Shown here piece after piece: positions 34,122 through 48,627 of a stretch of DNA of 64,000 bases. Position 1 is the first letter of the stretch; every line of letters starts with the position of its first letter. The notes under the pieces are model-generated. The model was not told where the DNA came from. It saw only the letters and a list, made by a program, of their open reading frames with translations, and searched no databases. The DNA is from Rhizobium sp. TH2. GTDB lineage: Bacteria > Pseudomonadota > Alphaproteobacteria > Rhizobiales > Rhizobiaceae. Location: contig NZ_CP062231.1 in NCBI RefSeq assembly GCF_024707525.1, positions 1,240,001 through 1,304,000 of the forward strand, written 5' to 3'. The position numbers were made by a program, and so were the translations under genes.

Positions 34122-34838
34122 TCACAGCGTGTAGCCGAATTTCCCGATTTCCCAGGCGTTCAGCGTCTCGATCTGCGCGTTCACGTCGGGATTTTTGGCG
34201 AAGATCTCCTGCGTGGTGATCGTTTTCTTGCGCGTCTCGCTCTTGGCGTTGATGCCCTTGAACGTCTCCCACAGGCCTGAAATGCCGGGGATTTCGGATT
34301 CGAGCTTGAGAATATCCTGCTCGAAATGCTCGTAGCGCAGATAGGTATCGACGATCTCGGCGCCGTCGATCCGGTAGTTCGGATAGTTGATCTCGATGAG
34401 ATGCGGGTTCTTGGCAAAATAGGGCGTGAAGTTCTTGAGCTTCGGCTTCCTGTCGCGCTTGGTGTTCTTCCAGAAGAAGATCGAGACCGCGCGATCCCAG
34501 GGATTGCGCACCAGCGAAATCTTGCGGTAGTCGCGCCAGACATTGGCCGGCAGCCGGCGTTTGGCCATCTTGGCCGGAATGTGATTGTAGAATTTCAGCG
34601 GCAGTTCCCGCTTGAAGATCTCCGCCGGCTTGTCTTTCGAAAACAGGTCCACGAGCGCGAAATTGAAATTGCGTGGGCCGATGAAGCCGAGATTGGAGCG
34701 GATCTCTTCGTCATTCCTGGAAATCGGCGTGATGATGTCGCCCTCGGACAGGAACTTCGACAGCGCGATTTCAAAGGATGTGCCCGCGACTTTCCGGGGC
34801 TTGATGAAGATGAACTTATGCTGATGAGAAACGATCAT
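34122..34838 (-). CDS. Sulfotransferase-family protein (1 of 7)
   Basis: This is a 238-residue protein with a sulfotransferase-2-like fold. FIKPRKVAGTSFEIAL near the N-terminus is the PAPS 5'-phosphosulfate loop, and SLVRNPWDRAVSIFFW is the 3'-phosphate binding block. It should transfer sulfate from PAPS to a carbohydrate or other acceptor, which is unknown. It lies convergently against the flavoprotein gene and marks one end of the polysaccharide region. Confidence 0.85.
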   Translation of the reverse strand: MIVSHQHKFIFIKPRKVAGTSFEIALSKFLSEGDIITPISRNDEEIRSNLGFIGPRNFNFALVDLFSKDKPAEIFKRELPLKFYNHIPAKMAKRRLPANVWRDYRKISLVRNPWDRAVSIFFWKNTKRDRKPKLKNFTPYFAKNPHLIEINYPNYRIDGAEIVDTYLRYEHFEQDILKLESEIPGISGLWETFKGINAKSETRKKTITTQEIFAKNPDVNAQIETLNAWEIGKFGYTL

Positions 34839-34996
34839 GAGGCTTTCTTCGAAACGCGGATCCTGCCGGTCGAGCCGGGCCGGCGCTATTTGAGCCCAAA
34901 AGCTTCAGATTTCAAGTGGAAGGTGCATCGCTGAAGAGCGGCCCAATGTGAGCGGCAAATTCATGCTGTACTGAAAGAGCGATCGGGAGATTGGCT

Positions 34997-35073
34997 TGGT
35001 CGGAGTGAGATGATTCGAACATCCGACCCCCTCGTCCCGAACGAGGTGCGCTACCAGGCTGCGCTACACTCCG
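34997..35073 (-). tRNA. tRNA-Pro (anticodon CGG)
   Basis: The minus strand folds as a cloverleaf: acceptor CGGAGTG/CACTCCG, D-stem GCGC/GCGC, anticodon stem CCTCG/CGAGG with loop TTCGGGA (anticodon CGG), T-arm GGATG-TTCGAAT-CATCT, and an encoded CCA. Reads CCG proline codons. Confidence 0.96.
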
Positions 35074-35241
35074 ATGACCAAGCGGGGGTTCTATAGACCA
35101 CGTCCCTGGTTTCCGCAAGCGTTTTTCGAGAGAAAATACGCTACTCGAGGACAGGCCGAATGTTCTGATTTTCCTTCACAAAAGATGCTTTGGAGCCCGG
35201 CTTTTCACCGGTTTCGGCAAAATTCGGCCGCCGCCGGTTTG

Positions 35242-35913
35242 TCAATATTCGGCGTCATTGATCTTTCCGAATGCCTCGATCGCCTCCGCGACGGAGGGAT
35301 AAAAGGTGACCGTGCCTTCGCTGAGTATGCCGGCCCGCTGGCAATAGCGCTCGACCAGCCGCGTATTGCCGGTCGCCATGAAAAAGGTGATGCTGTCGCT
35401 ATTGTCCTTGACGTATTCGGCCGTCCTTCGCCGGAAGCTGCTTTCGCCGGCTTCGAACGCATCGTCAATCAGGATGAATTCGAAATTCATCGCAAGCAGT
35501 GAGGTGAGTGCCAGCCGGTGGCGCTGCTCATTGGAATATTGCCGCACCGGCAGATCGACATAGCGGCCGAGTTCGGAAAACTCCTGCAGGAACTCGTAGG
35601 CCGCGGCGAAATTCCGGCCGTAGCAATCGGTGAGGAAGCGCAGGTTCTGTTTGCCCGTCATCTTGGCGCTGATGATGCCGCGATAGCTTGCCGGCCAGGA
35701 GATGTGTCCGCCGCGTGTGATGCTGCCCTCGGTCAGCAATTCGCTTCCCGCGACGAGATCGATCAGCGTCGTCTTGCCGCCGCCCTCGGGTACGAGGATC
35801 GCGGTGCTCTCGCCATTGACGATCGTGGCGCTGAAATTCCGGATCGGCCAGACGACCTCGCCCCTGTCCTTGCGGGATTTGTAGGCTTTCCCGACATTGT
35901 CGAAGTGGATCAA
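35242..35913 (-). CDS. kpsT: Capsular polysaccharide ABC exporter ATPase (KpsT-like)
   Basis: This is a 223-residue ATPase of the KpsT/Wzt type. The P-loop reads LVPEGGGKTTLID, lacking the usual first glycine, and the signature is the degenerate YSNEQRHRLAL. Walker B is FILIDDAFEAG. With KpsM it should export a capsule or K-antigen chain. The start is TTG at 35913, sharing TTGA with the kpsM stop. KpsT proteins commonly have variant signature motifs, but this P-loop is more divergent than usual. Confidence 0.85.
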   Translation of the reverse strand: MIHFDNVGKAYKSRKDRGEVVWPIRNFSATIVNGESTAILVPEGGGKTTLIDLVAGSELLTEGSITRGGHISWPASYRGIISAKMTGKQNLRFLTDCYGRNFAAAYEFLQEFSELGRYVDLPVRQYSNEQRHRLALTSLLAMNFEFILIDDAFEAGESSFRRRTAEYVKDNSDSITFFMATGNTRLVERYCQRAGILSEGTVTFYPSVAEAIEAFGKINDAEY

Positions 35914-36752
35914 AGGAGGTCCTCGTCGTCGTCGTCGTCGCCGCGCGAGCGGATGATCTCCTTGCGGAACAGGCGTTCGACCGCGAGCGAGAGAATCATC
36001 ACCGCGGTGGTGAAGCTGAGAAGGTAATAGGGACTGTAAAGCGAGATGTAGTCGAGATAGGAGGATGACCTCAGCGCCTCGATGCAGTGCAGGAACGGAT
36101 TCCACCAGATGATGGCCTGGATCTCGGGCGGCATGGAGGAGGGCACATAGAGCACGCCGGATGCAAACAGCAGCGGCAGTGTCGCGATCTTCCAGATCGT
36201 CCGCCAGATCGGGATCAGCGCGCCGAACGTGGCATTGAACAAGCTCATGGCGAGGCAGAAATAGAACATCGTGGCAAGCGCCAGGATGAAGTCCTGGAAT
36301 TTCGTGATCATCGTTATCTGCAACAGCCGCCCGCAGCCCACGAAAAATATGGTGAGCACGATCATCCAGATGGTGAATTCCACGACCGTTCGGGCAATCA
36401 CCACATCGGGCGGCTTGACGGCGCCGAAGCCGAACAGGCTCTGGTTATTCTGAATGGCCTTGCCGGCCTTGTTGATCGTATTGCGGGTAATGCGGAAGGC
36501 GATCAGCCCGGTGAGCAGGAACAGCGTCGAACTCTCGCCGAAAGCAGCGGAAACGTTCTTCACATAGATGCGCATGACCAGGATGAGCCCGACCATCAGC
36601 GTCGGCTCGACCATCGTCCAGAAATAGGCGATTGGCCCGGCACCGAAGCGAAGCGCGGCTTCCCGGAAGATAAGCGCAACCACCACGCGGCCGTTCATAA
36701 CGGCCCCGCGCCAAATGGTTTCGCCCTCGCTTATCGTGATCGCCTGGGACAT
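35910..36752 (-). CDS. kpsM: Capsular polysaccharide ABC exporter permease (KpsM-like)
   Basis: This is a 280-residue ABC-2-type permease with six predicted helices. RFGAGPIAYFWTMVEPTLM is the conserved first-helix entry, and NPFLHCIEALRSS lies before the last helix. The C-terminus ends in an acidic run of aspartates and glutamates, encoded by a GTC/CGT repeat. It is between kpsE and kpsT with tight spacing, forming an exporter operon. In rhizobia this set resembles the rkpRST genes. Confidence 0.88.
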   Translation of the reverse strand: MSQAITISEGETIWRGAVMNGRVVVALIFREAALRFGAGPIAYFWTMVEPTLMVGLILVMRIYVKNVSAAFGESSTLFLLTGLIAFRITRNTINKAGKAIQNNQSLFGFGAVKPPDVVIARTVVEFTIWMIVLTIFFVGCGRLLQITMITKFQDFILALATMFYFCLAMSLFNATFGALIPIWRTIWKIATLPLLFASGVLYVPSSMPPEIQAIIWWNPFLHCIEALRSSSYLDYISLYSPYYLLSFTTAVMILSLAVERLFRKEIIRSRGDDDDDEDLL

Positions 36753-36768
36753 CTCTCGGCTCTAACGA

Positions 36769-38601
36769 TCAGATCGCATGGTCACGGAACGATCGGTAGA
36801 GGAACTGGCTCACCAGCCATACCGCGAGCAGCACCAGGAAAGCGATGAAACTGTCCAGCCAGCGCAAGGGGTAGAGCGCGATCTCTGGGCGCGTGGGCGA
36901 GACGAAGGTCGCGAAATAGCGCTCCTGCTTCTGTGCCTCGGCGATCGAGGTTTCGAATGCGGCGAGTGCCGTTGTATAGGCCTGCGTCGCAAATCCCTGT
37001 TCCACCGTGAGTTCCTCGAACTTGTTGAGTACTTCGGCGACATTCTGCTTGACTGGATCGCCCGGCTTGGCGGGGTCTCTGGTCGTCGACGTGGTGGCGT
37101 CGAGCTGGCTTTGCAGTTCCGCGAGCTGACCCTCGAGCGAATCGATCGTCCGCTTCATTGCGCGCGCCTGTGGGGCGCTCTTGTCTACCTCCTTGAGCAG
37201 CGCGTTGAACCGCGTCTTGTTCGATGTGAGCTGCGATTGAACTGCCATGATCTGCTGGTTCAGCTGCGCGCCCACTGACTCGGGCGTCAGCACCTTCTCG
37301 ACTTCGCGCAGCTTTCGCACCTCGCCTTGCACCTTCCGCAGCCGCTCCTCGGAGCGATCCACCTGCTTGGAGGCAACCTGCATGACCTGCTGGCGATTGG
37401 CTTCGGAGAGTTCGTTGACCAGTCTCTCCGACACTTTGAGCACCGCATCGGCAATCGCCTTGGAATCCTCGGCGGTGAAGGCATAGATAAAGAGGGTGGT
37501 GTTGCCGGTCGTCGCGTTGAAGCTCACATCGGTCATGTCGCGCCAGTATTCGGTGAATTTCTCGAGCGGCATTGCCGGATCGACACGGTAGAGCCAGTCG
37601 ATGTGGTCGCGCGTGTAGAATTGCCTCAGGTCGATGCCGAGTTCCTGCTGCACGTCGCGAATGAGCTGCAGCGATTCGACGTAGCTCGCGACGATATAGG
37701 AATCGCCCGACTGCGCCGAGCCGCCACCGAGCATCGGCAGGCCAAGCGTGGCGATCGAGGACTGGCTTGCTCCGCGAACCGAGAACTGGGTCTCGACTTG
37801 ATACTGCGGGCTGGCGACGAAGAGATAGTAGAAGGTGGTCAGCGCGGCCGGGATCAACACCATGACGATGAAGGACAAAGCCGTCCACGGTATGGTCCAT
37901 TGCCGCGGCGGCTTGGTCTTCGGTTGCTGATCACGCTTGCGGACAGGCTTTTCGAACTCGTTGTCCAGCGCGCGGCCGGTGGTGGTCGCCGGCAGCGCTA
38001 CGGCTTTGCCCTTGGCCTCGCGGCGCAACATCCTGTTGGCGCGGCGGTCCTGCTTGTCCGCCTTGCCGGCGGGACGCTCCTTGTTGGCGGGGCGTTCCCT
38101 CTTGCCCGCCTTGTCCTCGGGCTTTGGCTGTCGCGCACGAATGGCGGGATCCTCGCCGATGTCGCGGAGTGCTGCTTCTTCCGCGCCTTCGAGCGGTGGC
38201 ACGGCTATGGTGGCTTGGGCCTGCTGGGGGCGCGGCTCCTGAACTGTCACGCGCGGTTCATTCACCGCCGCGCGCTGCTCGGGCGCCGCCATGCGCGGTT
38301 CATATGCGGCGGCACGCTGATCGTTGAACGTGGCGCGGGGATCGAAACTGGAGCGCGGTTCCGGCACGACCGGGCGCGCTTCCGGAATGACGGGCCGTGG
38401 CTCGGAGACCACAGGACGCGGCTCGACGAGAACCGGCCGTGGTTCGTTGAAAACGGCGCGCGGCTGGGCTTGATCGACAATTCCGTCGCGCTGAACCGCC
38501 GCAGGCGTCTCCCCGCTGTTGAGCGGCGGATCGCGGCGTACGGGTTCATTGTTCGAGGCGTCGTCGCCCGGGCGTCGTATCGGAGAGAAAGGAGCGTCCA
38601 A
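36769..38601 (-). CDS. kpsE: KpsE/RkpR-like capsule export protein with heptapeptide-repeat N-terminus
   Basis: This is a 610-residue polysaccharide co-polymerase-type protein. Membrane segments lie near residues 238-262 and 578-604, with a large periplasmic coiled-coil between them (about 400-540). The first 235 residues are cytoplasmic and disordered: residues 50-125 hold about eleven 7-residue repeats based on V-x-x-E-P-R-P, followed by a Lys/Arg-rich stretch. Typical KpsE proteins lack this extension. The start is TTG at 38601, with no better ATG before residue 104. It probably bridges KpsMT to the outer-membrane channel. Confidence 0.85.
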   Translation of the reverse strand: MDAPFSPIRRPGDDASNNEPVRRDPPLNSGETPAAVQRDGIVDQAQPRAVFNEPRPVLVEPRPVVSEPRPVIPEARPVVPEPRSSFDPRATFNDQRAAAYEPRMAAPEQRAAVNEPRVTVQEPRPQQAQATIAVPPLEGAEEAALRDIGEDPAIRARQPKPEDKAGKRERPANKERPAGKADKQDRRANRMLRREAKGKAVALPATTTGRALDNEFEKPVRKRDQQPKTKPPRQWTIPWTALSFIVMVLIPAALTTFYYLFVASPQYQVETQFSVRGASQSSIATLGLPMLGGGSAQSGDSYIVASYVESLQLIRDVQQELGIDLRQFYTRDHIDWLYRVDPAMPLEKFTEYWRDMTDVSFNATTGNTTLFIYAFTAEDSKAIADAVLKVSERLVNELSEANRQQVMQVASKQVDRSEERLRKVQGEVRKLREVEKVLTPESVGAQLNQQIMAVQSQLTSNKTRFNALLKEVDKSAPQARAMKRTIDSLEGQLAELQSQLDATTSTTRDPAKPGDPVKQNVAEVLNKFEELTVEQGFATQAYTTALAAFETSIAEAQKQERYFATFVSPTRPEIALYPLRWLDSFIAFLVLLAVWLVSQFLYRSFRDHAI

Positions 38602-38917
38602 TGTGAAATTCCGTCAAAACGGCCAGCCGTCCGCGACCCGCCACGCTAAGATTGTTTTCTTGGGCCTGGCGCAAGAAATAAACGGCGTAGAGTGATTTGC
38701 GCCCCTCTGCCGGCCGCCAATCTATTATATTTCCATTGTGCCAACAATATGATTTTCATTTCAGAAACGGTCACTTCGTTACCACGGGTGCAGCCTGTCG
38801 CACCGCAAGGACTACCCAGTCGCTTCTACCGATAATATCCGGCTTACCTGATGCGCGATTTGGTGTAGAGGATCGTTGGGCGCCTTTCGCGCCGCCATTT
38901 ACAGCAGCATAGCCGGC
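38602..38917. other. Divergent intergenic region, kpsE / glycosyltransferase
   Basis: This 316-base gap has an AT-rich core near 38715-38765 that could hold divergent promoters. No gene, tRNA or repeat is seen. Confidence 0.4.
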
Positions 38918-40363
38918 ATGGAAAACACGGACAAAATCGCACTCATCATTCCATTGCGGCTGACCGGCGCCACCTATGAGGCCGCGGCGCGGCTCGGGCG
39001 CATCTGCGCCAACGTGCCACGCGACCTGTTCGATATCGTCATCTCCGACTACGGCACGCCGCCCGAACATCGCGGCCCGATCGACGCACTTGCCGCCGAA
39101 GGCATCAGGATCGTCACGCATCCGTCGCCGCATCGGCTGTTCTCCATCGGCCAGGCGCGCGATTTCGGCGTGCAGATGAGCCAGTCGCCGGTCATCATCT
39201 TCAACGATATCGATTTTCTCGGCACGGGGGATATGTATCGCGCGATCCACGCCGAAGCGGCGCGACGCGGGCTGTCCCGCAATCTCTTTGATTTCTTCTG
39301 CGTGCCGGTGCTCTTCCTCACCGAGGAAGGCACGAGGGCGTGGCTCGAGGCATCCGGCGATGCGAGGCCCTTCGCCGGTTCGCGCGATGTCGATTCGCTT
39401 GAAGCGGCCAAGTCGGAGATCCAGTCGGTCGCCTATGGAAGCTCCGCCATGGTGGTCAATCGCCATCATTATCTGTCGCTCGGCGGCCATGATCCGCGCT
39501 TCTCGGGCCATGGCGCGGAGGATTACGACCTGCTGCACCGGCTCGCCACGATCGCGCCGAAAGGGCCGCGCCCGCGCGATTATTTCAACGATTACAAGGA
39601 CAACGGCGTCAGGCATTACTGGGGGTTCCGGCCGTTCTTTGCGCTTTATGGCCTCGATCTATTGGCTTCCGGCATCCATCTCGTGCATCTCTGGCATCCG
39701 CGCCGCCAGGAGAAGGGCTATTTCCGGCCGGGCCGCAATTTCAGGCTCCTGAAGCGCGTCATGAAGCAGTTCGACCGAACCGGGGGTCAACCGCTGCCGC
39801 TGGCCGATCTCGCTTCGGGGCAGGGGCGCTGGAGCGTGCTCTACCGCAATGGCGCCGATCTCGACCTGCTGCGCCAACTCCTGCCGCTCTCCGGTGGCTA
39901 TGAGCTGATCAAGGTGGGCTCTTTCAAGGCCGGCCTGCGCTTCATCCCGGCAATGTCCACGGCCGGAACGCGTCTCGTGGTCGCAACGCCGGGTGTCTCA
40001 GGCGATGCCGCGGCCTTTGCTGCCGCTCTGCCTGACGGGCTGCGCCTGCTACGCGCGCTTGCGCCATCGGCGGGCGACGGCGAGATCGGCTTCCTGCTGC
40101 TGCCGGATCGGTCGGATGCGGTGGTGGCCACGCCTCGCACTGTTCAGGCGCCGTCGGGTAAACCGGTTTTTACGTGGTGGCCTGAGCTTGCCCTTCCCGG
40201 CGGCCTGCCGGCTTTGTCGAGCGGTACGATACCCACACCGGTGCCTGTCGGCGACCCGCTCTATGCGAGTTTCGGAGATATGCAGGCGCGGGCAAACCGG
40301 CCGGCGCGTAAGAAGAAGTCGCCGCTGCTGGTGCGGCTGAAGCGGTGGTTCACCGGTTATTGA
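38918..40363 (+). CDS. Glycosyltransferase, GT2 / galactosyltransferase-like
   Basis: This is a 481-residue protein. The first 250 residues are a GT-A glycosyltransferase: IALIIPLRLTGATYEAA opens the Rossmann fold, IIFNDIDFLG holds the metal-binding aspartates, and LGGHDPRFSGHGAEDYDLL is the C-terminal block of the galactosyltransferase family. Residues from about 280 on form an additional domain I do not recognise. It should add a sugar to the exported polysaccharide. Divergent from kpsE. Confidence 0.8.
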   Translation: MENTDKIALIIPLRLTGATYEAAARLGRICANVPRDLFDIVISDYGTPPEHRGPIDALAAEGIRIVTHPSPHRLFSIGQARDFGVQMSQSPVIIFNDIDFLGTGDMYRAIHAEAARRGLSRNLFDFFCVPVLFLTEEGTRAWLEASGDARPFAGSRDVDSLEAAKSEIQSVAYGSSAMVVNRHHYLSLGGHDPRFSGHGAEDYDLLHRLATIAPKGPRPRDYFNDYKDNGVRHYWGFRPFFALYGLDLLASGIHLVHLWHPRRQEKGYFRPGRNFRLLKRVMKQFDRTGGQPLPLADLASGQGRWSVLYRNGADLDLLRQLLPLSGGYELIKVGSFKAGLRFIPAMSTAGTRLVVATPGVSGDAAAFAAALPDGLRLLRALAPSAGDGEIGFLLLPDRSDAVVATPRTVQAPSGKPVFTWWPELALPGGLPALSSGTIPTPVPVGDPLYASFGDMQARANRPARKKKSPLLVRLKRWFTGY

Positions 40364-40456
40364 GGTCCGCCGACTCGCCCGGCTTGCCATCGTGGGGCCG
40401 GCGTATTAATCGGAGTGCCGGATTTTCTGCCCATCGGGCTTATGACAGGTCGTTCA

Positions 40457-41317
40457 ATGCCGCGAATTCTCTTGCATATCGGTGCCCACAAGACCGCCAC
40501 CTCCTACATGCAGAAGAAGCTCGCGCTCAATGTCGATCTCCTTGCCCGGCGCGGCTTTCACTACGATCCGCTCGAAACCTTCCGCAAGGGCTTCACGCTG
40601 CTCCTCAACGAAGAGACGACGCGCGAGAACGACTATGTGAAGCTTTTGAACGGCAAGGCCAAGTCGATGTCGCTCCTCATATCCGAGGAGAACATCATGG
40701 GTGTGCCCGGCGATCTTCCGCGTGAGCACAAATATTATATAAGGGCACGGCAGCGCCTTGCCCGCACGGCCGAACTGTTCCACACGGCCACGCCGGAAAT
40801 CTTCCTGTCGCTTCGGGAATATGCGGGTTTCGCGGTCTCCATGTACAGCGAGTATATCAGGCACCAGAAATATCTGCCGTTCGCCGAGTACCGGGCGATC
40901 TTCGAGGCGTCCAATTTCAGCTGGCTGTCGGTGATCGACGACATCTATGCGGCGGTGCCCGGCGCCAAGCTCACGCTCTGGGATTTCGCCGACTTCCGCA
41001 ACTTTGAAAAACAAGTCTTCCAGTCGATGCTCGGCTTCGATCCCGATATCTTCGAAAATCCGGTTGGCCCGGTGCGGGAGTCGTTTTCCGAAGTCGCCAT
41101 CAGGGCTATCGAAGTGCTCAGCGGCGCGCTCAAGCATGACGAGGTGAAGAAACTGGTCAATCCGATCGCGCGCAACCTGCCGAAGGGCGATCAGTATCCA
41201 GCCTTTGATCCCATGGATGCGGAGGCGAAGGCGAGCCTCAAGGCGCGGTACAAAGCCGATCTCGCCGCGATCGCCGCGAAATATCCGGCCGTCACCTTTA
41301 TCGGCAACCGGCCGTAA
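40457..41317 (+). CDS. Sulfotransferase-family protein (2 of 7)
   Basis: This is a 286-residue protein. MPRILLHIGAHKTATSYMQ at the N-terminus is the PAPS-loop form seen in bacterial sulfotransferase-like proteins, close to the start of the protein at 47746. LISEENIMG and a middle helical segment with FLSLREYAGFAVSMY (3'-phosphate block) follow. The ATG at 40457 follows AGGTCG; 40442 is an alternative. Acceptor unknown. It stands tail to tail with the sulfotransferase gene at 41325. Confidence 0.75.
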   Translation: MPRILLHIGAHKTATSYMQKKLALNVDLLARRGFHYDPLETFRKGFTLLLNEETTRENDYVKLLNGKAKSMSLLISEENIMGVPGDLPREHKYYIRARQRLARTAELFHTATPEIFLSLREYAGFAVSMYSEYIRHQKYLPFAEYRAIFEASNFSWLSVIDDIYAAVPGAKLTLWDFADFRNFEKQVFQSMLGFDPDIFENPVGPVRESFSEVAIRAIEVLSGALKHDEVKKLVNPIARNLPKGDQYPAFDPMDAEAKASLKARYKADLAAIAAKYPAVTFIGNRP

Positions 41318-41324
41318 CTGCTGC

Positions 41325-42026
41325 TCAGTCGGTAACCACGGAATCTTCGCCGGTATCCGCATCGCCCGCGGCGCGGAAACGCGGCTCGATCTTGCCGTCT
41401 CGCGTCAAACTTCCATGCAGGTCGAAGGCGAATTGCCACGCCGTCTTCAGCCGCTCGCGCGTTTCATCCGACAGCGTTATGTCGCCGACCGGCGAGACGT
41501 TCATAAGCTTCAGATCGACCGGGCGCTTGCTGCGCTCCTCGATCATCTCGTGCAGGCCCGAGAGATCCTCATAGGGAAAAATGTGGTCGCAACCGATGCC
41601 GCCATCGGTCTTGAGTGCCACGCCATACGGGCTACCGAGGCCGGCATAGGTTGCGCGCTCGCCTTTCGGCTTCAGCACCTCCTGTACGAACGCGTCGAAG
41701 GTGACGTTGCCGGTGTAGTTTCCACGCCGCTTCTTGTTGTTTGCTTCCTTGAGCTTTTCACGCGTCCGGTAGCGATACCAGCTTCCAAGCCAGTCGATCG
41801 GCTCCCGCATGACCGACACGACCTCGTATTCCGAACGTTCGAGACCGGTCTGGGCCTGCAGCCACGGCGCCACGTGGGTCATGAACTTGTGGTAGGGCAT
41901 GTGCTTCAGCGACGGCGGATTGTTGACCGCGATCGATGCCCGGGGCGACAGCGCGTGATCGAGTGCCGTCGTGCCGGTCTTCGGCTGGCTCAGGATAACG
42001 AGCCGGGCGGGATAGAGGAAAATCAT
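41325..42026 (-). CDS. Sulfotransferase-family protein (3 of 7)
   Basis: This is a 233-residue protein. ARLVILSQPKTGTTALDHAL is the PAPS-loop and SVMREPIDWLGSWYRYR the 3'-phosphate block, both near positions typical of sulfotransferases. A basic segment KEANNKKRRGNYTG follows and may contact a polyanionic acceptor. The start at 42026 overlaps the stop of the upstream gene by 4 bases (ATGA), so they are translated together. Confidence 0.8.
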   Translation of the reverse strand: MIFLYPARLVILSQPKTGTTALDHALSPRASIAVNNPPSLKHMPYHKFMTHVAPWLQAQTGLERSEYEVVSVMREPIDWLGSWYRYRTREKLKEANNKKRRGNYTGNVTFDAFVQEVLKPKGERATYAGLGSPYGVALKTDGGIGCDHIFPYEDLSGLHEMIEERSKRPVDLKLMNVSPVGDITLSDETRERLKTAWQFAFDLHGSLTRDGKIEPRFRAAGDADTGEDSVVTD

Positions 42027-42736
42027 TGCGCGGATGCCTTTTCGGCCGCTTCGGCTCGGCGCAGCGGGAGCAGCTCCTCGCGGCGCTTCGCGCACCATCT
42101 GTAGATGTTGTAATCGTCGGTGTAATAATTCTCGATGTTTCTGCGCCCAAGCTCGGAAACCGTCTTCTCGAAAGTATCCGGCGTCCTGTGCGCGCCATAG
42201 TCGTCGGTCGGTAGTTCCAGATCATCGGGCACGCCGAGCAATTGGCGCAGCAAACCGAAATCGCTATCGAAACTCTCGGTTGCGCCGATGAAATAAATCC
42301 TGTCCTTCTCCTGTTCGAGCAGTTCGACGGATCCGAGATAATGCCCATAGTTGCGCCGGAGATGTTTGATGCCGGCCATGGCATCCTCGGCGTGCTGGCG
42401 AAGTTCGGCATCCCCGGCACTCAAGCCTTCCGCGAGCTGGTTCGGAGTCTTGAAAAGCTCGAAGGCGATCTCTTCGCGCGCATTCCAGTCATTGCCGTGG
42501 CGGGGAAAGCCTTTTCGCAGCCGGCTGTTGAAGGCGGAGATATAGCGCGAGACCGGTTCGCGAACGAAGAAGATAACGTTGCCGGTCATGTTCGCGTCGG
42601 CGACATCCTGCATGCTCACTCTATGGCCGTAGAGGGCTACCGGCCCGCCACCGCCACGCTCCTTGTGAGCCTTGAGTACGGTCTTGGCGGCGGTGCCGCC
42701 CGTCTTGCCGATATGGAGCAACCCGAATTTGTCCAT
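42023..42736 (-). CDS. Sulfotransferase-family protein (4 of 7)
   Basis: This is a 237-residue protein. FGLLHIGKTGGTAAKTVL is a sulfotransferase-2-type PAPS loop, and VIFFVREPVSRYISAFNSR is the 3'-phosphate block. The carbohydrate-type pattern resembles heparan and chondroitin sulfotransferase relatives more than the cytosolic enzymes. The start is placed at 42736; an upstream extension lacks similarity. Coupled to the gene at 41325. Confidence 0.82.
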   Translation of the reverse strand: MDKFGLLHIGKTGGTAAKTVLKAHKERGGGGPVALYGHRVSMQDVADANMTGNVIFFVREPVSRYISAFNSRLRKGFPRHGNDWNAREEIAFELFKTPNQLAEGLSAGDAELRQHAEDAMAGIKHLRRNYGHYLGSVELLEQEKDRIYFIGATESFDSDFGLLRQLLGVPDDLELPTDDYGAHRTPDTFEKTVSELGRRNIENYYTDDYNIYRWCAKRREELLPLRRAEAAEKASAQ

Positions 42737-42785
42737 GCTACCAGCCTGAACATTTTTTTGCCGAACTCTGGCACGATCGCCGGTT

Positions 42786-43628
42786 CTATCGCGTCGCATC
42801 GTAAAATCCCTGGCCGAAAGCCTCGATGAGATAGGCCTGCTGCGGTTTGACCATCTCCTCCACTTCGTTGCGCACCCATTGAGGTATCTCGACATCCTTG
42901 GTCTTGTGTACCTGCTCCGTCATGGAATCGTAATTTTCGAAGCGCTCGGCGCCGATGAAGTCCTCGACGTCGCGCAGGAAGCCGGCGGGATCATGCTTGA
43001 CCCTGCCGAAGGGCAGGATCAGCAACCGGTCGGACCCGAAGAAGGATTGCCAGAGCGGGATCGCCGACTGGTAGGTGCCGCGGGGATTTTGCTTGAGCCT
43101 GTCGATGAAAAACTCCCAGTCTTCTCTGGTCTCCGGCGTCTTGCCCACCATGGTGATCGCCATCCTGATCTGTGACAGGCTGCGTGAAAGCGGTTCCCGG
43201 ATGCTCAGTATGAACTTGGTCATCGGCAGCATGTCACGGATCTTTGGCAGCGCATCCAGGGCGTGGTCGAGATAGGAGGGCGTGATTTCGCCGGATACCC
43301 GGCCGACAGCATCGGGATGGGCGAAGATAGACCGGTACCATTCGTCGGACAGGATATTGTCGCCGGCGAGACTCCGGAGAAATGCCGCCTTTGCCCCATT
43401 GTCTCCAGCCGACCCTCTTTGCCTGTTGGAATTCTCGAGGCGATCCGCGGCCTTGTCCAGATGCCGTGCGCGTCGCCGTTTCTGGTCCTCCGTCGCGTTC
43501 AGCTTATCGAAGAAGTGCACTTCCTTGAGCGGTGGCAGCCAGATGGACGGGTTCTGGGCCAGCATCTGGTACAGCCATGTCGTGCCCGCCTTGTGCGTTC
43601 CGATGCCAATGAAACCCGGCAATGTCAT
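42786..43628 (-). CDS. Sulfotransferase-family protein (5 of 7)
   Basis: This is a 280-residue protein with the best canonical sulfotransferase motifs in the region: FIGIGTHKAGTTWLYQMLA (5'-phosphosulfate loop), LKEVHFFDK, and ILSIREPLSRSLSQ (3'-phosphate block). The latter and a C-terminal FGRVKHDPAGFLRDVEDF match N-deacetylase/N-sulfotransferase- and GlcNAc-sulfotransferase-like enzymes. It probably sulfates a sugar residue; the acceptor is unknown. Confidence 0.88.
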   Translation of the reverse strand: MTLPGFIGIGTHKAGTTWLYQMLAQNPSIWLPPLKEVHFFDKLNATEDQKRRRARHLDKAADRLENSNRQRGSAGDNGAKAAFLRSLAGDNILSDEWYRSIFAHPDAVGRVSGEITPSYLDHALDALPKIRDMLPMTKFILSIREPLSRSLSQIRMAITMVGKTPETREDWEFFIDRLKQNPRGTYQSAIPLWQSFFGSDRLLILPFGRVKHDPAGFLRDVEDFIGAERFENYDSMTEQVHKTKDVEIPQWVRNEVEEMVKPQQAYLIEAFGQGFYDATR

Positions 43629-43680
43629 ATCGTCTTCCTCAATCCAAGCTCGCGATCCATACAAGAGCGCCGCTTATTCC

Positions 43681-44652
43681 TCACTTGTGTTCTCCAGACA
43701 AGGCATTAATCGCGATCCGCATCAGGTCGTCGAAACTGCCCCTGGCCGCCAGCGAGCCTTCGACATAGAGGTCTTTATCATCGGGCGGGTCCTCGAGAAA
43801 CAGCGCGTCGCGACCGAACCAGTGCCGAGCCGTCGCCCGGTTGGATGCGTCGAAGCGATCGAGCACGCCTTGCCGTTCGGTTGCCGTGTAGAGCGTCCTG
43901 GCTTTGCAATCCGCCGATTTTGCGACCTCCTGCAGAAAGCCGATGATCGCCACTCGCTCCGGATTCGGGATGTCGTACATTCCGGCGCGGCGCACATATT
44001 CCAGCGTCTCGGTGGGCAGGCTGTCGTTCTGTGCCGATGCGTCGAATTTCAGCGCCTTGGGATCGATCCCGACATGGGTCAGGAAGTCGCCGATCGCATC
44101 CTCGACCTGACCCTTCTCGATGATCAGCACCATCACCTTCTCGCGGCCGAGCGCCTTTTCCCAGAGGCCCAGCATGCGCTCGAAATCGAGCCAATGGAAT
44201 TCATCGAGACAGCCGAGAAACTCCTTCGGCGTCATCACGGAGTGCTTGCGCGAAAACGGCCACTTGATGTGCTGGTTATACCAGCTCATCAGCCAGTGGT
44301 CCTGCCGCCTGAGATAGACGATCGCATCGACGTCGTAGATTTCCTTCAGCGGCGTGAGCCAATCGAGATTCTGGTGGATGCAGAAATCCTCGCCCGAGAG
44401 GATGATATGCCCGGCATCCGCATAGGGCTCCAACTTCTTGACCAGTTCCTTGCCCGTCATTTTACCGCGATGGAGATCCCAGGCGATATCCTGGTGGTTG
44501 GTGCCCTTGAACGGATAGCACTTGCCGAGTTTCGAGAGCCGGTCGCGATTGGCCGCCAGCCCGCGCTGCAATCCGGTCGTTCCCGTGCGGTGAATGCCGA
44601 TATGCAGCGTCAGCCTGGTGCCGGTCTTCGCGCGCTTGATCTTCCAGAACAT
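43681..44652 (-). CDS. Sulfotransferase-family protein (6 of 7)
   Basis: This is a 323-residue protein. LTLHIGIHRTGTTGLQRGL is the P-loop region, IILSGEDFC and AIVYLRRQDHWLMSWYNQH are the later blocks, the last carrying the arginine/serine of the 3'-phosphate site. The C-terminal 100 residues contain no recognised domain. The ATG at 44652 follows ACGGAACGG. It lies 52 bases upstream of the previous gene's start on the same strand and 14 bases after the glycosyltransferase stop. Confidence 0.78.
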   Translation of the reverse strand: MFWKIKRAKTGTRLTLHIGIHRTGTTGLQRGLAANRDRLSKLGKCYPFKGTNHQDIAWDLHRGKMTGKELVKKLEPYADAGHIILSGEDFCIHQNLDWLTPLKEIYDVDAIVYLRRQDHWLMSWYNQHIKWPFSRKHSVMTPKEFLGCLDEFHWLDFERMLGLWEKALGREKVMVLIIEKGQVEDAIGDFLTHVGIDPKALKFDASAQNDSLPTETLEYVRRAGMYDIPNPERVAIIGFLQEVAKSADCKARTLYTATERQGVLDRFDASNRATARHWFGRDALFLEDPPDDKDLYVEGSLAARGSFDDLMRIAINALSGEHK

Positions 44653-44666
44653 CGTACCGTTCCGTT

Positions 44667-45662
44667 CTAGAGCCAGTTGGCGCGGCACATCAGGCCGAGC
44701 CGGATCAGTTGCTCGGTCGATTCATAGCGGACGCTGACGCCTTCCTCGTAGAGATTCTCGCGATTCTCCTTGGCATAGCGCTCATATTCGGTGCCGCCGT
44801 AATAGTGTTCCTTACGCTGCATCTCCTCGGCGGCCTTGTCCTTCAGGCTGGCGAAGAACTTGAAGTGGAACAGCGCGCCGGTGGGAGTCGGATTGAAGCG
44901 GTCCTGCACCCGCATCAGCCGCATCGGCTTGATATCGTGCATCGAACTGACATAACGGAAATTCCACTGCCACCAGACGACCGGGATCTTGTTGAGGGCC
45001 GGCGACTTCAGCGGATCGCGCCTGTTATGCACCCGCATGCGCGGGCCGCCCCGCGTGAATGTCGGCATGGCGTGCGTCGAGATCTGCGGATATCCGTCCC
45101 GGTCGAAGAAGGGCGCGACATCCCACGGGTTGTCACCCTGTCGATAGATGGTCTCGGCAAGCGGCTTGTCGCTATATGCGTCCAGCATCACGACATGGAA
45201 GGCCTCGCGCTTTTCCATCTTCATGTATTCGCCGAGTTCCTTGAGGCTCCGCGTCTCCATGCAGGGATAGACGAGGAATTCATCCGGATCGACGGTGACG
45301 CAGAGATGGCCGGTGCCGTATTTCCGCAGCAGGAAATTGCACCATTCCATGCCGAAGTTCGCCGCTTTGTAGCCCGCCTTGGTGTGCCACACGGAAATAT
45401 CGGGTTGCTGCCGCGCCCAATCCATGAAGCCGTCATCGGAATTGTTGTCGATGATGAGGAAGTGGTTGACGCCGAGCTTGCGGTAGTAATCGACGAAATA
45501 AGGCAGCCGGAACAGCTCGTTGCGCAGGCACATGAAGAGCAGCACGTCGCTCTTCTTCATCGCCTTGGTGTTGTCGACCTTGAGCTTCAGCTGCTTGCCG
45601 AAGCGGCGCATCCGCATGTGATGCGACACCTGGTTCAGGAACATGTTGAAGTTGAGATTCAA
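44667..45662 (-). CDS. Glycosyltransferase family 2-like protein
   Basis: This is a 331-residue GT-A-type glycosyltransferase (Glyco_tranf_2_4 type). LLFMCLRNELFRLPYFVDYY, then FLIIDNNSDDGF and CVTVDPDEFLVYP (metal-binding Asp-x-Asp) are visible. The most likely start is TTG at 45662, overlapping the upstream stop (TTGA) with GGGGG upstream; the first ATG is at 45644. It probably builds the glycan backbone or side chain of the same polysaccharide. Confidence 0.8.
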   Translation of the reverse strand: MNLNFNMFLNQVSHHMRMRRFGKQLKLKVDNTKAMKKSDVLLFMCLRNELFRLPYFVDYYRKLGVNHFLIIDNNSDDGFMDWARQQPDISVWHTKAGYKAANFGMEWCNFLLRKYGTGHLCVTVDPDEFLVYPCMETRSLKELGEYMKMEKREAFHVVMLDAYSDKPLAETIYRQGDNPWDVAPFFDRDGYPQISTHAMPTFTRGGPRMRVHNRRDPLKSPALNKIPVVWWQWNFRYVSSMHDIKPMRLMRVQDRFNPTPTGALFHFKFFASLKDKAAEEMQRKEHYYGGTEYERYAKENRENLYEEGVSVRYESTEQLIRLGLMCRANWL

Positions 45663-47506
45663 TTGTCCAACCCCCTGAGCGCCTCGGTGAGGTCCTTCGG
45701 TGCGTCTTCGCGCACCGCTGTCTGCAGTTCGAGCGCGGACGTAAAGAGTTCGGGCAGTGCCACCGGGAAATTCAGCTTGAGCAGCCGCCAGCGCGCGTGC
45801 AGCTGTCCCAGCATCGAGACCGAGGTCTTCCAATGGTCGGGCAGATCGGTGATCAGTTCCTCGATGGTGAGCGCATTGAGAGCGTCTTCCATCCGCGCGA
45901 GATTTTCCGTCACCGGCATCACGGCCTCGCCATGGCGGAACTTGAGCGCTGCCTGCCAGTCGTTGGCCGAGGTCTCGGCACTCATATTGGCTGTCTTGAG
46001 ATAGGTTTCCGTGCGCAGCCGGTAATCGGGCGGCACTTTGGCCTCCACCGCCTTCTGCATGGCGCGGAAACTCTCGATCGGCGTCGATGCACGGCCGGTC
46101 TTCTGGCCATCACCGGCGACCAGCGTCCAGTACATCTGCCGCATCACATCGTTGTCGTGCTCGGGCATGACGGGCAGCACCACGGCATTGCGGCTCAACA
46201 TCAGCGCCATTTCGCCCTGTGGACTGTCGCCCGGCGCCAGCTCGATCACCGCCATGTCATCGACGCGCGACAGGATGCGGCCGAAATAGGTCGGTGGATC
46301 GAAGTCGCGGATCAGGTTGTCGTCGCTATGAAGCCCGCGGAATGTCGCGACACCCGGCCCGAAATCGACCTTGCCGGGATGCAGCACCCGGCCGAGCACC
46401 GTCACGCCCTTGATGCCGCGAAGCGCGTCGGCGGCACGGCGCGTCAGCTGCGGCGGGCCATAGAGCACGGTAAAACTCTGTGGGCAATTTTCCAGCACAT
46501 CCGGCCATAGGCCCAGGCTACGATGCTGGAACAGCGCCGGCGTCAGCGGCGAAGCCTTCGGAAGTGCCGCGATCATCTCCTTGTAGGGAAAATGGTAGCG
46601 CTTCGAGAAATCGATCTTCAGTGGCTTCTCAGGCACCGGCTGCTTGGCGATATCGATCAGGCTCGCCCGCAGCTTCTTCGCCGCCGAACTCACCTTGCGG
46701 GCGAAGAAGAAGGGCAGGTCCCGGATCATCTCCATATGGTCGTCCATCAGGACGATCGGCTTGCCCCAGTCGTTGAAGTGGAAAAAGGTCAGGTTCCGCC
46801 GCGCGAGATTGTCATTGTGCGTGAAGCGGAAGGCCATGGTCTGGAAGAACATCTCGTCAGGGATCCACGTCGTCGAGAAGAAGAAATACACCATCGGGTG
46901 CTTCTGGATGTAATCCAGAATCTTCTCGCAGAGCTTCCAGCTCAGGCACCACCATTGCGACCCGAAGCGCGGCTCGAGCGAACGCGGAAAGCGCCGCTTC
47001 GGCCAGAACATCCGCTGCAGCTGGAAATGTCCGTTGAACAGTTTCGGATATTTCTGGTGATTGAAGAAATGCCAGTATTGATAGCGTTCCTTGCGCAGCC
47101 CGCCGATCATCCAGTTCGAATCATAGGCTTCGATGAACTCCGTCTGCGGATGTTCGTCGAGGAATTGTGAGAGCTCCGCAAGTGGCCGGATCGGCATGCA
47201 GGCGCCCGATATCAGCATCACCCGGTCGCAATCGATCTTCTCCCGGCGCACGACGCGCAGCGCCCGGACAACCGAATCCACCAGGCTGAAATTGCCCCAG
47301 CCGCATTTGATCCGGTCCTTGACCAGGTGGATGCGCGAGGATGCCGCCGTCCGTTCCTTGAGGCGTTCGAACTGCTTGGTCGGCGAATTGAGGTCGTAAT
47401 GGATCACGGCATTCGCATGCGGATCCCATTCGGTGAGCAGGCTTGCCAGGTCGGCGACGTGGTCGGCATTCTCATGTGCCAGTATGATGAACGTGATTTT
47501 CGCCAT
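45659..47506 (-). CDS. Core-2/I-branching-type beta-1,6-N-acetylglucosaminyltransferase-like protein
   Basis: This is a 615-residue protein. The N-terminal half (residues 1-270) matches the Branch/GT14 family: FIILAHENADHVADL, LISGACMPIRPLAEL and GSQWWCLSWKLCEKIL. Eukaryotic members add beta-1,6 GlcNAc branches; bacterial homologues with this long C-terminal half (DUF5928-like) occur in rhizobia. The second half has no assigned role. It overlaps the downstream glycosyltransferase by 4 bases. Confidence 0.82.
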   Translation of the reverse strand: MAKITFIILAHENADHVADLASLLTEWDPHANAVIHYDLNSPTKQFERLKERTAASSRIHLVKDRIKCGWGNFSLVDSVVRALRVVRREKIDCDRVMLISGACMPIRPLAELSQFLDEHPQTEFIEAYDSNWMIGGLRKERYQYWHFFNHQKYPKLFNGHFQLQRMFWPKRRFPRSLEPRFGSQWWCLSWKLCEKILDYIQKHPMVYFFFSTTWIPDEMFFQTMAFRFTHNDNLARRNLTFFHFNDWGKPIVLMDDHMEMIRDLPFFFARKVSSAAKKLRASLIDIAKQPVPEKPLKIDFSKRYHFPYKEMIAALPKASPLTPALFQHRSLGLWPDVLENCPQSFTVLYGPPQLTRRAADALRGIKGVTVLGRVLHPGKVDFGPGVATFRGLHSDDNLIRDFDPPTYFGRILSRVDDMAVIELAPGDSPQGEMALMLSRNAVVLPVMPEHDNDVMRQMYWTLVAGDGQKTGRASTPIESFRAMQKAVEAKVPPDYRLRTETYLKTANMSAETSANDWQAALKFRHGEAVMPVTENLARMEDALNALTIEELITDLPDHWKTSVSMLGQLHARWRLLKLNFPVALPELFTSALELQTAVREDAPKDLTEALRGLDN

Positions 47507-47745
47507 TAAGCGCCTGTATTCCTGTATTGCCGCCGTCGAGCCCTGATGATGCAGGGTCAGCGGGACGACAAAAGCAGATCTCCGCTACCATTTATCGCTG
47601 ATTGTCTTGGGCTGAAGCGTTTATCCATGGACGCGCTCAAAAGCAATATGGCGCTCGGTTTTCCACTTTTGCCGGGAGCCTTTCCTATCCGACCACCACC
47701 CGCTATAGATCGCCGAACCACACACCACCCGGAACATCCCGCCGC
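47507..47745. other. Divergent intergenic region
   Basis: This 239-base gap lies between the GT14-like gene and the sulfotransferase-like gene at 47746. No gene or repeat is seen; both promoters should be here. Confidence 0.35.
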
Positions 47746-48627
47746 ATGAAGATTCTCGTCCATCTGGGCGTTCACAAGACCGCCACGACCTTTATCCAGA
47801 GCCAGCTCGCCAACAACAGGGCGGAGCTCTCGGGCAAGGGCTATGGCGTGGCCGGCATCTGGGTCGTGCGCAAGCGCTTCACCAACCTCTTCGACAGGCT
47901 GAGCTTTTTCGACCCGGTCTGGCGGTTCCTTACCCGGCCTATTCTCAGGCGCCGTCTGGAACGCATCATCGGCAAGAACAAAACGGGCGAGACCTTTCTC
48001 CTCTCGGACGAAAACCTGCTCGGCCTGATCTCCGCCAACTACTGGCGCGGCGCGCTCTATCCCTGGGCCGGCATGCGGGTGAAGATCCTCAAAAGCCTGT
48101 TCGGCGCGCGCGAAGCACATTACTTCCTCTGCATCCGCCGCTATCCCGATTACCTCACCTCGTCCTGGCTGCAGATGGCCTCGAAAGGCAAGGCGCCGCC
48201 CTTCGAGAAATATCTCGAGAAATTTCCGCCCGAGGGGAGGGGATGGGCCGATATCGTTAGTGATATCACAAATGTCTGCGGCCCCAAAAATCTCACGGTC
48301 TGGACCTATGACTGGTTCTCCGAGAATCCGGCGCAAGTCTTCCGGCTCCTTGCTCCCGGCACCGATTTCACAGTGCCGGAGAGGGAACTCAAGCGCGAAA
48401 TTCTGCCGTCACTGACGATCAAGGGCCTCAATGTCATCAACCAGCTCGAGGACCATCTGTCGCGGGCCGAGCTCAAGCGTCTGAGCGCTGTCATCCGCAC
48501 CTTCGAGTTCGACGAACCGAATCCCCGGCTCGAAATCAGCGAGCCGGCACTCATCGCGGCCTATGATGAGAAGTACCGCGCCGATATCGAGAAAATCCGC
48601 GCCTCGGGCGTGGAATTCCACGGCTGA
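47746..48627 (+). CDS. Sulfotransferase-family protein (7 of 7)
   Basis: This is a 293-residue protein. MKILVHLGVHKTATTFIQSQ at the start is almost the same P-loop region as the protein at 40457. LLSDENLLGL and FLCIRRYPDYLTSSWLQM (3'-phosphate block) follow. A lysine/arginine-rich segment around residues 70-85 could bind an anionic acceptor. It ends the polysaccharide region before the unrelated stress protein. Confidence 0.76.
   Translation: MKILVHLGVHKTATTFIQSQLANNRAELSGKGYGVAGIWVVRKRFTNLFDRLSFFDPVWRFLTRPILRRRLERIIGKNKTGETFLLSDENLLGLISANYWRGALYPWAGMRVKILKSLFGAREAHYFLCIRRYPDYLTSSWLQMASKGKAPPFEKYLEKFPPEGRGWADIVSDITNVCGPKNLTVWTYDWFSENPAQVFRLLAPGTDFTVPERELKREILPSLTIKGLNVINQLEDHLSRAELKRLSAVIRTFEFDEPNPRLEISEPALIAAYDEKYRADIEKIRASGVEFHG

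Follow-up and report, generated by a model that had tools for sequence, protein, structure and literature searches.

A locus of multiple predicted sulfotransferases beside a capsule-type exporter in Rhizobium sp. TH2

Gene content of the locus

The genome of Rhizobium sp. TH2 (G000, 6.44 Mb) contains a locus in which genes for predicted sulfotransferases (STs) lie next to genes for a capsule-type exporter and for glycosyltransferases (GTs). It is part of the 64,000-nucleotide stretch analyzed here, the window (C1:1240001-1304000), where the gene order between 34.1 and 48.6 kb is ST1(-), tRNA-Pro(-), kpsT-like(-), kpsM(-), kpsE(-), GTA(+), ST2(+), ST3(-), ST4(-), ST5(-), ST6(-), GTB(-), BR(-), and ST7(+). 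BR, GTB, ST6, ST5, ST4, and ST3 follow one another on the same strand with short gaps, and the stop codon of ST4 overlaps the start codon of ST3 (ATGA). An earlier sequence-only reading of this DNA had described seven ST genes sitting with kpsE, kpsM, kpsT, and three GT genes. All seven open reading frames (ORFs) are real and lie where they had been placed, and each encodes both motifs for binding the sulfate donor 3'-phosphoadenosine 5'-phosphosulfate (PAPS). The association with the exporter and the three GTs (GTA, GTB, and BR) holds for ST2 to ST7, which are interleaved with them, but not for ST1, which lies beyond the tRNA gene and is mostly unlinked in related genomes.

A KpsM/KpsT exporter of the ATP-binding cassette (ABC) type and a KpsE co-polymerase are present, with scores under the curated cut-offs. 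The polysaccharide co-polymerase gene of capsule exporters, kpsE (36769..38601, minus strand), matches TIGR01010 (BexC_CtrB_KpsE) with an E-value of 2.4e-51 and 174.9 bits (cut-off 437.5), and the permease gene kpsM (35910..36752, minus strand) matches ABC2_membrane as well as the KpsM model NF050053 (112 bits; cut-off 300). The ATPase gene (35242..35928, minus strand; the start is uncertain and the ORF reaches 36105) is termed kpsT-like based on an ABC_tran match and synteny: models for polysaccharide-export ATPases match it below cut-off, none of them is KpsT, and TagH/Wzt-type models score best. The same ATPase has odd Walker A (VPEGGGKTT), signature (YSNEQ), and Walker B (LIDDA) motifs and the highest ratio of nonsynonymous to synonymous substitution rates (dN/dS, 0.45) in the cluster. 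The N-terminus of KpsE is composed of proline/arginine-rich repeats (EPRPVV...), the KpsE domain itself beginning at approximately residue 243.

Two of the glycosyltransferases are of the GT2 type: GTA (38876..40363, plus strand; Glyco_tranf_2_2, E 2e-26), which has a C-terminal extension, and GTB (44667..45833, minus strand; Glyco_tranf_2_4, PF13704, E 4e-29), whose true start is probably inside these limits. The third, BR (45659..47506, minus strand), is a GT14/Branch enzyme that matches PF02485 with an E-value of 1e-17 and 64.8 bits, well over the cut-off of 23.4. In a profile search of the Protein Data Bank (PDB), the N-terminal 240 residues of BR matched xylosyltransferase 1 (E 1.4e-12). 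This part of the protein resembles xylosyltransferase 1 and the core-2 GlcNAc transferases of family GT14 (PDB 6ej7 and 3otk), from which BR differs in its DUF5927-like C-terminal part (a weak PF19349 match) and in its capsule context.

Sulfotransferase motifs and families

The 5'-phosphosulfate-binding (PSB) loops of ST1 to ST7 read, in that order, KVAGTS, HKTATS, KTGTT, KTGGT, HKAGTT, HRTGTT, and HKTATT, and in all seven translations an R-x7-S 3'-phosphate-binding (3'-PB) motif is found downstream of the loop. Both motifs are retained in the aligned orthologs from the genus, except in one broken ST1 row (L098), which starts past the loop; the ST7 copy of L113 was left out of this check, as its frame is broken and its loop is not alignable or not in frame. 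The search with Sulfotransfer profiles that the sequence-only reading had proposed recovered some of the seven. ST1 (34122..34838, minus strand; PF03567, 24.5 bits, cut-off 22) and ST4 (42023..42736, minus strand, with an ORF from 42895 and an ATG before the P-loop at 42736; PF03567, 33.7 bits) score above the Sulfotransfer_2 cut-off, and ST5 (42786..43628, minus strand, ORF from 43664; PF13469, 61 bits) scores above those of Sulfotransfer_3 and Sulfotransfer_1. The other four do not reach a curated cut-off. ST3 (41325..42026, minus strand, ORF from 42098) falls just short of Sulfotransfer_1 with 20 of the 22 bits, and six of seven orthologs, the window copy included, match this model at E <= 0.05. 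ST2 (40457..41317, plus strand, ORF from 40415) and ST7 (47746..48627, plus strand, ORF from 47602) have no Pfam match, and ST6 (43681..44652, minus strand, ORF from 44688) has none that is significant. The starts given for ST2 and ST7 are internal ATGs directly ahead of the P-loops.

These last three proteins belong to one family, as seen from motifs, profiles, and a tree: ST2 and ST7 match each other by BLASTP with an E-value of 1e-21, and the profile-profile comparisons (hhalign) reach 98-100%. In an alignment of 57 ST7-type sequences (the window copy and 56 of the 120 homologs listed), the columns of the P-loop, an S-D-E-N motif, and the 3'-PB are invariant or nearly so; across the ST2/6/7 family, the same is true of the P-loop, an S-x-E motif, and the arginine and serine of the 3'-PB. 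The statement that the seven sequences differ strongly is therefore correct in that five groups are distinct, but it overlooks the ST2/6/7 family and the fact that ST1 and ST4 both match Sulfotransfer_2. Profile-profile links extend from ST5 to ST2 (66%, over the P-loop stretch) and to ST7 (74%, over the 3'-PB stretch), whereas control comparisons of any ST with kpsT or cysNC profiles gave 6.1% or less.

In single-sequence PDB searches, ST3 matched nothing, ST4 matched nothing meaningful, and ST1 had weak matches to steroid sulfotransferases (E 0.006). The top match of ST5 is 3rnl, named only "Sulfotransferase" (E 9e-10), followed by chains of 3-O-sulfotransferases (best E 5e-9). ST5 aligns with heparan sulfate 3-O-sulfotransferases (PDB 1t8t, 1vkj, and others) at the PSB loop, the 3'-PB, and an E-V/P-H-F-F-D segment, which we take to be catalytic in these enzymes. 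The single stretches are weak, and the similarity, although significant over the whole chain, is distant.

The membership of ST1 is doubtful. The tRNA-Pro(CGG) gene (34997..35073, minus strand; identified by ARAGORN) that separates it from kpsT flanks kpsT in all six genus genomes with a linked cluster and thus serves as a boundary marker. ST1 is present in eight of the nine genus genomes; five of these have it at a distance from the cluster, and in all three genomes where it is nearby it lies outside the tRNA gene. In six of the eight it is within 12 kb of a second cysD gene, and three of these six have no capsule cluster there. Because ST1 lies beyond the tRNA gene, is unlinked in most genomes, and is mostly found near the second cysD, we set it aside as a full member. 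It probably lies outside the cluster, and the firm count is six (ST2 to ST7), perhaps seven, rather than the seven originally proposed.

The ST genes are under purifying selection, resembling the GT and exporter genes, and none of them shows a sign of relaxed selection: pairwise dN/dS values against two or three genus relatives are 0.20-0.37 for STs, 0.24-0.34 for GTs, and 0.19-0.45 for kpsEMT, all of them rough, since synonymous differences are large (pS 0.40-0.68) and some partner ORFs have N-terminal overhangs. For L113, the calculation took the broken ST7 and ST1 frames unchanged and, for BR, whose frame is also broken, the best piece. The genome as a whole encodes at least 13 STs, of which seven lie within 14.5 kb and at least six elsewhere; a Poisson estimate puts the chance of such clustering at approximately 7e-12.

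A second locus and the distribution of both

The sequence-only reading had also noted that kpsC and kpsS were not recognizable. They are absent locally, but the genome has a pair, its only one, at C1:3.854-3.858 Mb, about 2.6 Mb from the window cluster; given this pair, we rejected the idea of a capsule made without priming by 3-deoxy-D-manno-octulosonic acid (Kdo), for which the absence of kpsC and kpsS would have spoken. The second locus (L103:5656-16589; G000:C1:3848656-3859589) contains cysD-cysNC-cysQ on the plus strand, an RTX-repeat gene, and then kpsS, kpsC, and a kpsD-like gene on the minus strand. KpsC matches the solved KpsC with an E-value of 6.5e-62, KpsS scores 236.5 bits with its model NF050054 (cut-off 600), and the product of the kpsD-like gene has Poly_export/SLBB matches. 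A search with Capsule_synth (PF05159) identified one KpsS and one two-domain KpsC in every genus genome, with broken frames in G154. The cysD-cysNC-cysQ/kpsS-kpsC-kpsD layout recurs in four of five other genomes (G151, G152, G153, and G154), the RTX gene being found in TH2 only; in the fifth, G084, kpsDCS is at a contig end. Judged by coordinates, the kinase gene of G155 and G157 likewise lies no more than 5 kb from kpsS/kpsC, and in the fragmented G156 assembly they are on two contigs.

Each genus genome has one strong match to adenosine 5'-phosphosulfate (APS) kinase, namely cysNC, and four genomes have a second, weak one. In TH2, cysNC is the only match; the second CysD/CysN pair of this genome, at 21.3-23.8 kb of the window, gave no match to the kinase. 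In rhizobia it is generally APS, not PAPS, that is reduced, and a single APS kinase would therefore work for sulfation. PAPS genes are linked to kpsC/S/D, and STs are linked to GTs, in two loci rather than in one. Because every genus genome has one kpsE match (in G154 split into two adjacent pieces) and a single KpsC/S pair, the two loci can be paired by elimination, and the pairing stands on these counts.

Among the relatives compared are Rhizobium alvei TNR-22 (G151), R. setariae KVB221 (G152), and Rhizobium sp. FKL33 (G153). BR is present in all nine genus genomes; in a sample of 151 genomes from the family, only three have it, and two of these belong to the same genus. The number of STs detected in the cluster (single-sequence phmmer, E <= 1e-5) ranges from two to six across the genus, with BR and GTB constant. 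ST2 to ST7 are all found in TH2, G155, and G156; five are found in G157 (no ST4), four in G151 (ST2, ST3, ST5, and ST7), and three in G152 (ST2, ST5, and ST7). In G153, G084, and G154, two or three STs lie beside BR/GTB, with kpsE placed on a different contig or at a distance of 3 Mb. Orthologs of ST4 occur in just two other genus loci. Broken frames (BR, GTB, kpsC, cysD, and ST7 or ST1) were seen in G154 (L114 and L119) and G155 (L113) and reflect either sequencing error or decay.

Beyond the genus, we surveyed the best 80 of 579 confirmed BR stretches, of which 74, mostly from Rhodobacteraceae, are from outside the genus. BR and an ST occur together in 68 of these 74 loci: 66 have one ST, two have two, and six have none. 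These counts are lower bounds, since the STs were sought with the window families and one Rhodobacteraceae family and several contigs end within the 10-kb flank. The ST profiles were clean ones built from ortholog alignments; BR matches of an iterated ST6 profile were discarded, as it had drifted through a BR-ST fusion (L064). In Salinicola corii, cysNC, a GTB-type gene, a BR-type gene, kpsM, kpsT, kpsE, GTA, BR, and ST6-type and ST7-type genes are contiguous within 16 kb, and kpsS/kpsC lie 35 kb beyond that block. In the tree, ST6 of the genus forms a group with the ST6-type genes from Salinicola and Halomonas (96/88), whereas the link of ST2 to its Salinicola/Halomonas partner is weaker (87/85). 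Among 12 chosen distant relatives with BR, APS kinase was found in 12 and Capsule_synth in 11.

How unusual is the number of STs? On the one hand, the claim that so many STs are unusual holds for loci with the GT14 enzyme BR, given the predominance of a single ST in the survey. On the other hand, nine and ten ST ORFs, respectively, are packed into approximately 16 kb each in G172 and G459, two genomes from another family of the same order (L157:3804-19998; L155:7870-19999 with L156:342-4320), so seven is less exceptional than supposed and six or seven STs per locus is not a record. These ORFs surround a protein of about 1250 residues with kpsC-like matches and weak ST6-profile matches. Nine of the ten G459 ORFs were scanned with Pfam: five score above an ST cut-off, one below, and three have no ST match, among them the long protein (Capsule_synth plus GT2); those of G172 were counted by profiles. 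Members of the ST2/6/7 family were detected in 85 of 397 genomes of the order, with at most five candidates scored per genome.

Several STs are fused to GTs elsewhere. A gammaproteobacterial ORF of 1046 residues (L064:1399-4536) joins a Branch/GT14 enzyme to an ST6-type domain, which has only a sub-threshold Sulfotransfer_4 match in Pfam, scores 212 bits with the ST6 profile, and joins the ST6 group in the tree (100/98). A GT4-Sulfotransfer_2 fusion occurs in L157, and TH2 itself encodes a 742-residue GT2_4-Sulfotransfer_3 fusion at C1:818 kb (L104). Such fusions suggest action of an ST on the sugar placed by its partner GT. The TH2 fusion adjoins a Sulfotransfer_1 gene, which makes this a second ST locus of the genome (L104:7040-10959; G000:C1:815-819 kb).

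Predicted pathway and its alternatives

Taken together, these data point, with a probability of roughly three in four, to a locus that encodes one half of a KpsC/S-primed capsule pathway dependent on an ABC transporter, namely the half for polymerization, sulfation, and export, with a product sulfated at several positions. A sulfated KpsC/S capsule is the likely product because the single KpsC/S pair lies beside the only APS-kinase match and because in Salinicola most of the same kit is contiguous. Together with KpsE, KpsM, and the KpsT-like ATPase, these findings also support well the earlier suggestion of a sulfated, ABC-exported surface polysaccharide. In the proposed pathway, KpsS and KpsC, encoded about 2.6 Mb away, would assemble the Kdo linker on a lipid, and the chain would be built in the cytoplasm by GTA, GTB, and BR, the GT14 enzyme. 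ST2 to ST7 would transfer sulfate to it from PAPS; CysD-CysNC would make this donor and CysQ would recycle it, the genes of all three being beside kpsC/kpsS. The product would be exported by KpsM/T/E and the KpsD-like protein.

Several observations weigh against this interpretation. KpsE, KpsM, KpsS, and the ATPase all score under the curated cut-offs of their models. BR, GTB, and the ST genes do not adjoin kpsE in three of the nine genus genomes. With 11 of 14 control genomes having it too, APS kinase is too common for its presence alone to say much. Within the cluster, no sugar-nucleotide gene was recognized; thus, the sugars of the polymer are not predictable. Halomonas korlensis has an ST, BR, and KpsMT-like genes and no Capsule_synth match. 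This last case is consistent with an exporter that handles a sulfated O-antigen or another glycan without Kdo, in the manner of Wzm/Wzt, as are the better fit of the ATPase to TagH/Wzt-type models than to KpsT and the lack of linkage to the KpsC/S genes. We consider such an exporter unlikely: the co-polymerase is of the KpsE type, each genus genome pairs one kpsE with one KpsC/S pair, and Capsule_synth is found in 11 of the 12 distant BR relatives versus 2 of 14 controls.

Other points of the same kind concern the sulfotransferases themselves. None of 22 ST2/6/7 members matched any Pfam family at E <= 0.01, only four of the 57 ST7 rows matched weakly (two Sulfotransfer_1 and two Sulfotransfer_3), and a search of PDB sequences with ST2, ST6, and ST7 gave no match; their tie to known STs lies in the motifs and in the short-stretch profile matches of ST2 and ST7 to ST5. 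In the profile comparison, neither ST1 nor ST3 exceeded 2.8% with any other ST, and ST4 was linked to ST5 only (44.5%). The near invisibility of ST2, ST6, and ST7 in these searches would fit the idea that several of the seven are sulfotransferase-fold proteins without sulfotransfer activity, either decayed or with another role. However, conservation of both PAPS-site motifs, the S-x-E motif of ST2/6/7, and purifying selection make this very improbable.

The sequence itself shows the gene content, the motifs, the single KpsE and KpsC/S pair of each genome, the one strong APS-kinase match, synteny, and purifying selection; action of the STs on this polymer, a separate position for each, and the sugars involved are inferred. 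The earlier suggestion of heavy and regioselective sulfation is consistent with the distinct ST groups, with purifying selection, and with the GT-ST fusions. That there is one enzyme per sulfated position is about an even bet at most, favored by the selection and the fusions. Alternatively, the STs could be PAPS enzymes that serve several acceptors (capsule, lipopolysaccharide, and glycolipids) or that overlap in specificity, in which case their number would not equal the number of sulfated positions. This possibility, to which we give a minority share, overlaps with our preferred interpretation and disputes mainly the one-enzyme-one-position assignment. The detected cluster ST set, which differs between species (two to six members) on an unchanged background of BR and GTB, the proximity of ST1 to the second cysD even where no capsule cluster is present, and the six or more STs elsewhere in the genome are all consistent with it, as is the deletion of xssE, one of the two STs of the synechan system, which left bloom formation and extracellular polysaccharide substantially unaltered (PMC8205485). 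It is opposed by the interleaved operon layout with its conserved order, by the lack of any ST with signs of relaxed selection, and by the fusions elsewhere.

Seen as a sulfated capsule pathway, the system appears ordinary in kind and richly elaborated: the chassis is known, and the number and mix of STs are unusual for loci with this GT14 enzyme. A bolder and more tentative possibility, which also receives a minority share, is a bacterial "sulfation code": three GTs would make a KpsC/S-primed polymer that six to seven position-specific STs then decorate, and gain or loss of single STs on a constant chassis would set the sulfate pattern of each species. Such a code would include the 3-O-sulfotransferase-like ST5 and a new ST family nearly invisible to Pfam, and it would be functionally like the sulfation of animal glycosaminoglycans.

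PAPS-dependent sulfation of surface or signal glycans is familiar in rhizobia from NodH and LpsS and from the sulfated K-antigens of Mesorhizobium and Sinorhizobium. To our knowledge, these systems have one or few STs that are not clustered with a capsule exporter. NodH is treated in PMC11625862. Cobetia marina KMM 1449, with a capsule shown to be sulfated, is alike in having kpsETMD, kpsSC, cysNC/cysD/cysQ, and ST and GT genes; there, a cluster of about 70 genes also includes sugar-nucleotide genes and the disaccharide repeat carries one sulfate (PMC11766843), whereas here the genes are in two loci, with six STs to three GTs. Vibrio sp. KMM 8419 also combines an ABC exporter, PAPS genes, and STs; it differs in that its 95-kb locus has three ST genes, serves O-antigen synthesis as well, and lacks kpsC, and its authors regard PAPS genes and STs in a single cluster as a hallmark of sulfated polysaccharide synthesis (PMC11641403). 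The xss cluster of Synechocystis, which makes the sulfated extracellular polysaccharide synechan, resembles the present locus in having STs of distinct subfamilies clustered with GTs but is a Wzx/Wzy system with two STs and eight GTs (PMC8205485). Among the titles and abstracts of open-licence papers, we found none on the present locus or on a capsule cluster with six STs.

Two of the compared clusters, synechan (PMC8205485) and Vibrio (PMC11641403), have two and three STs. Within the genus, GTs of the same kind occur with two to six detected cluster STs, a natural series in which the one-enzyme-one-position idea can be tested and from which regioselective sulfotransferases new to glycan synthesis could come. 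Genes for PAPS supply and for Kdo priming can lie megabases from the sulfation genes, and a search confined to a single cluster would wrongly judge the capsule pathway incomplete.

In Rhodobacteraceae, on whose capsular sulfotransferases, or on DUF5927/5928, no paper was found in the same open-licence literature, the usual ST partner of BR is a gene for a protein of about 470 residues located directly downstream of BR in 62 loci of the survey. Among 19 of these proteins scanned at E <= 0.05, matches were found to Sulfotransfer_3 (12), Sulfotransfer_2 (7), and Sulfotransfer_1 (2). In the representative L061:11685-13133 and 61 similar ORFs, an MRTGSN loop is found toward the N-terminus and a second stretch, R-H-P...A-R-A-H, toward the C-terminus, and the protein possibly comprises two sulfotransferase domains.

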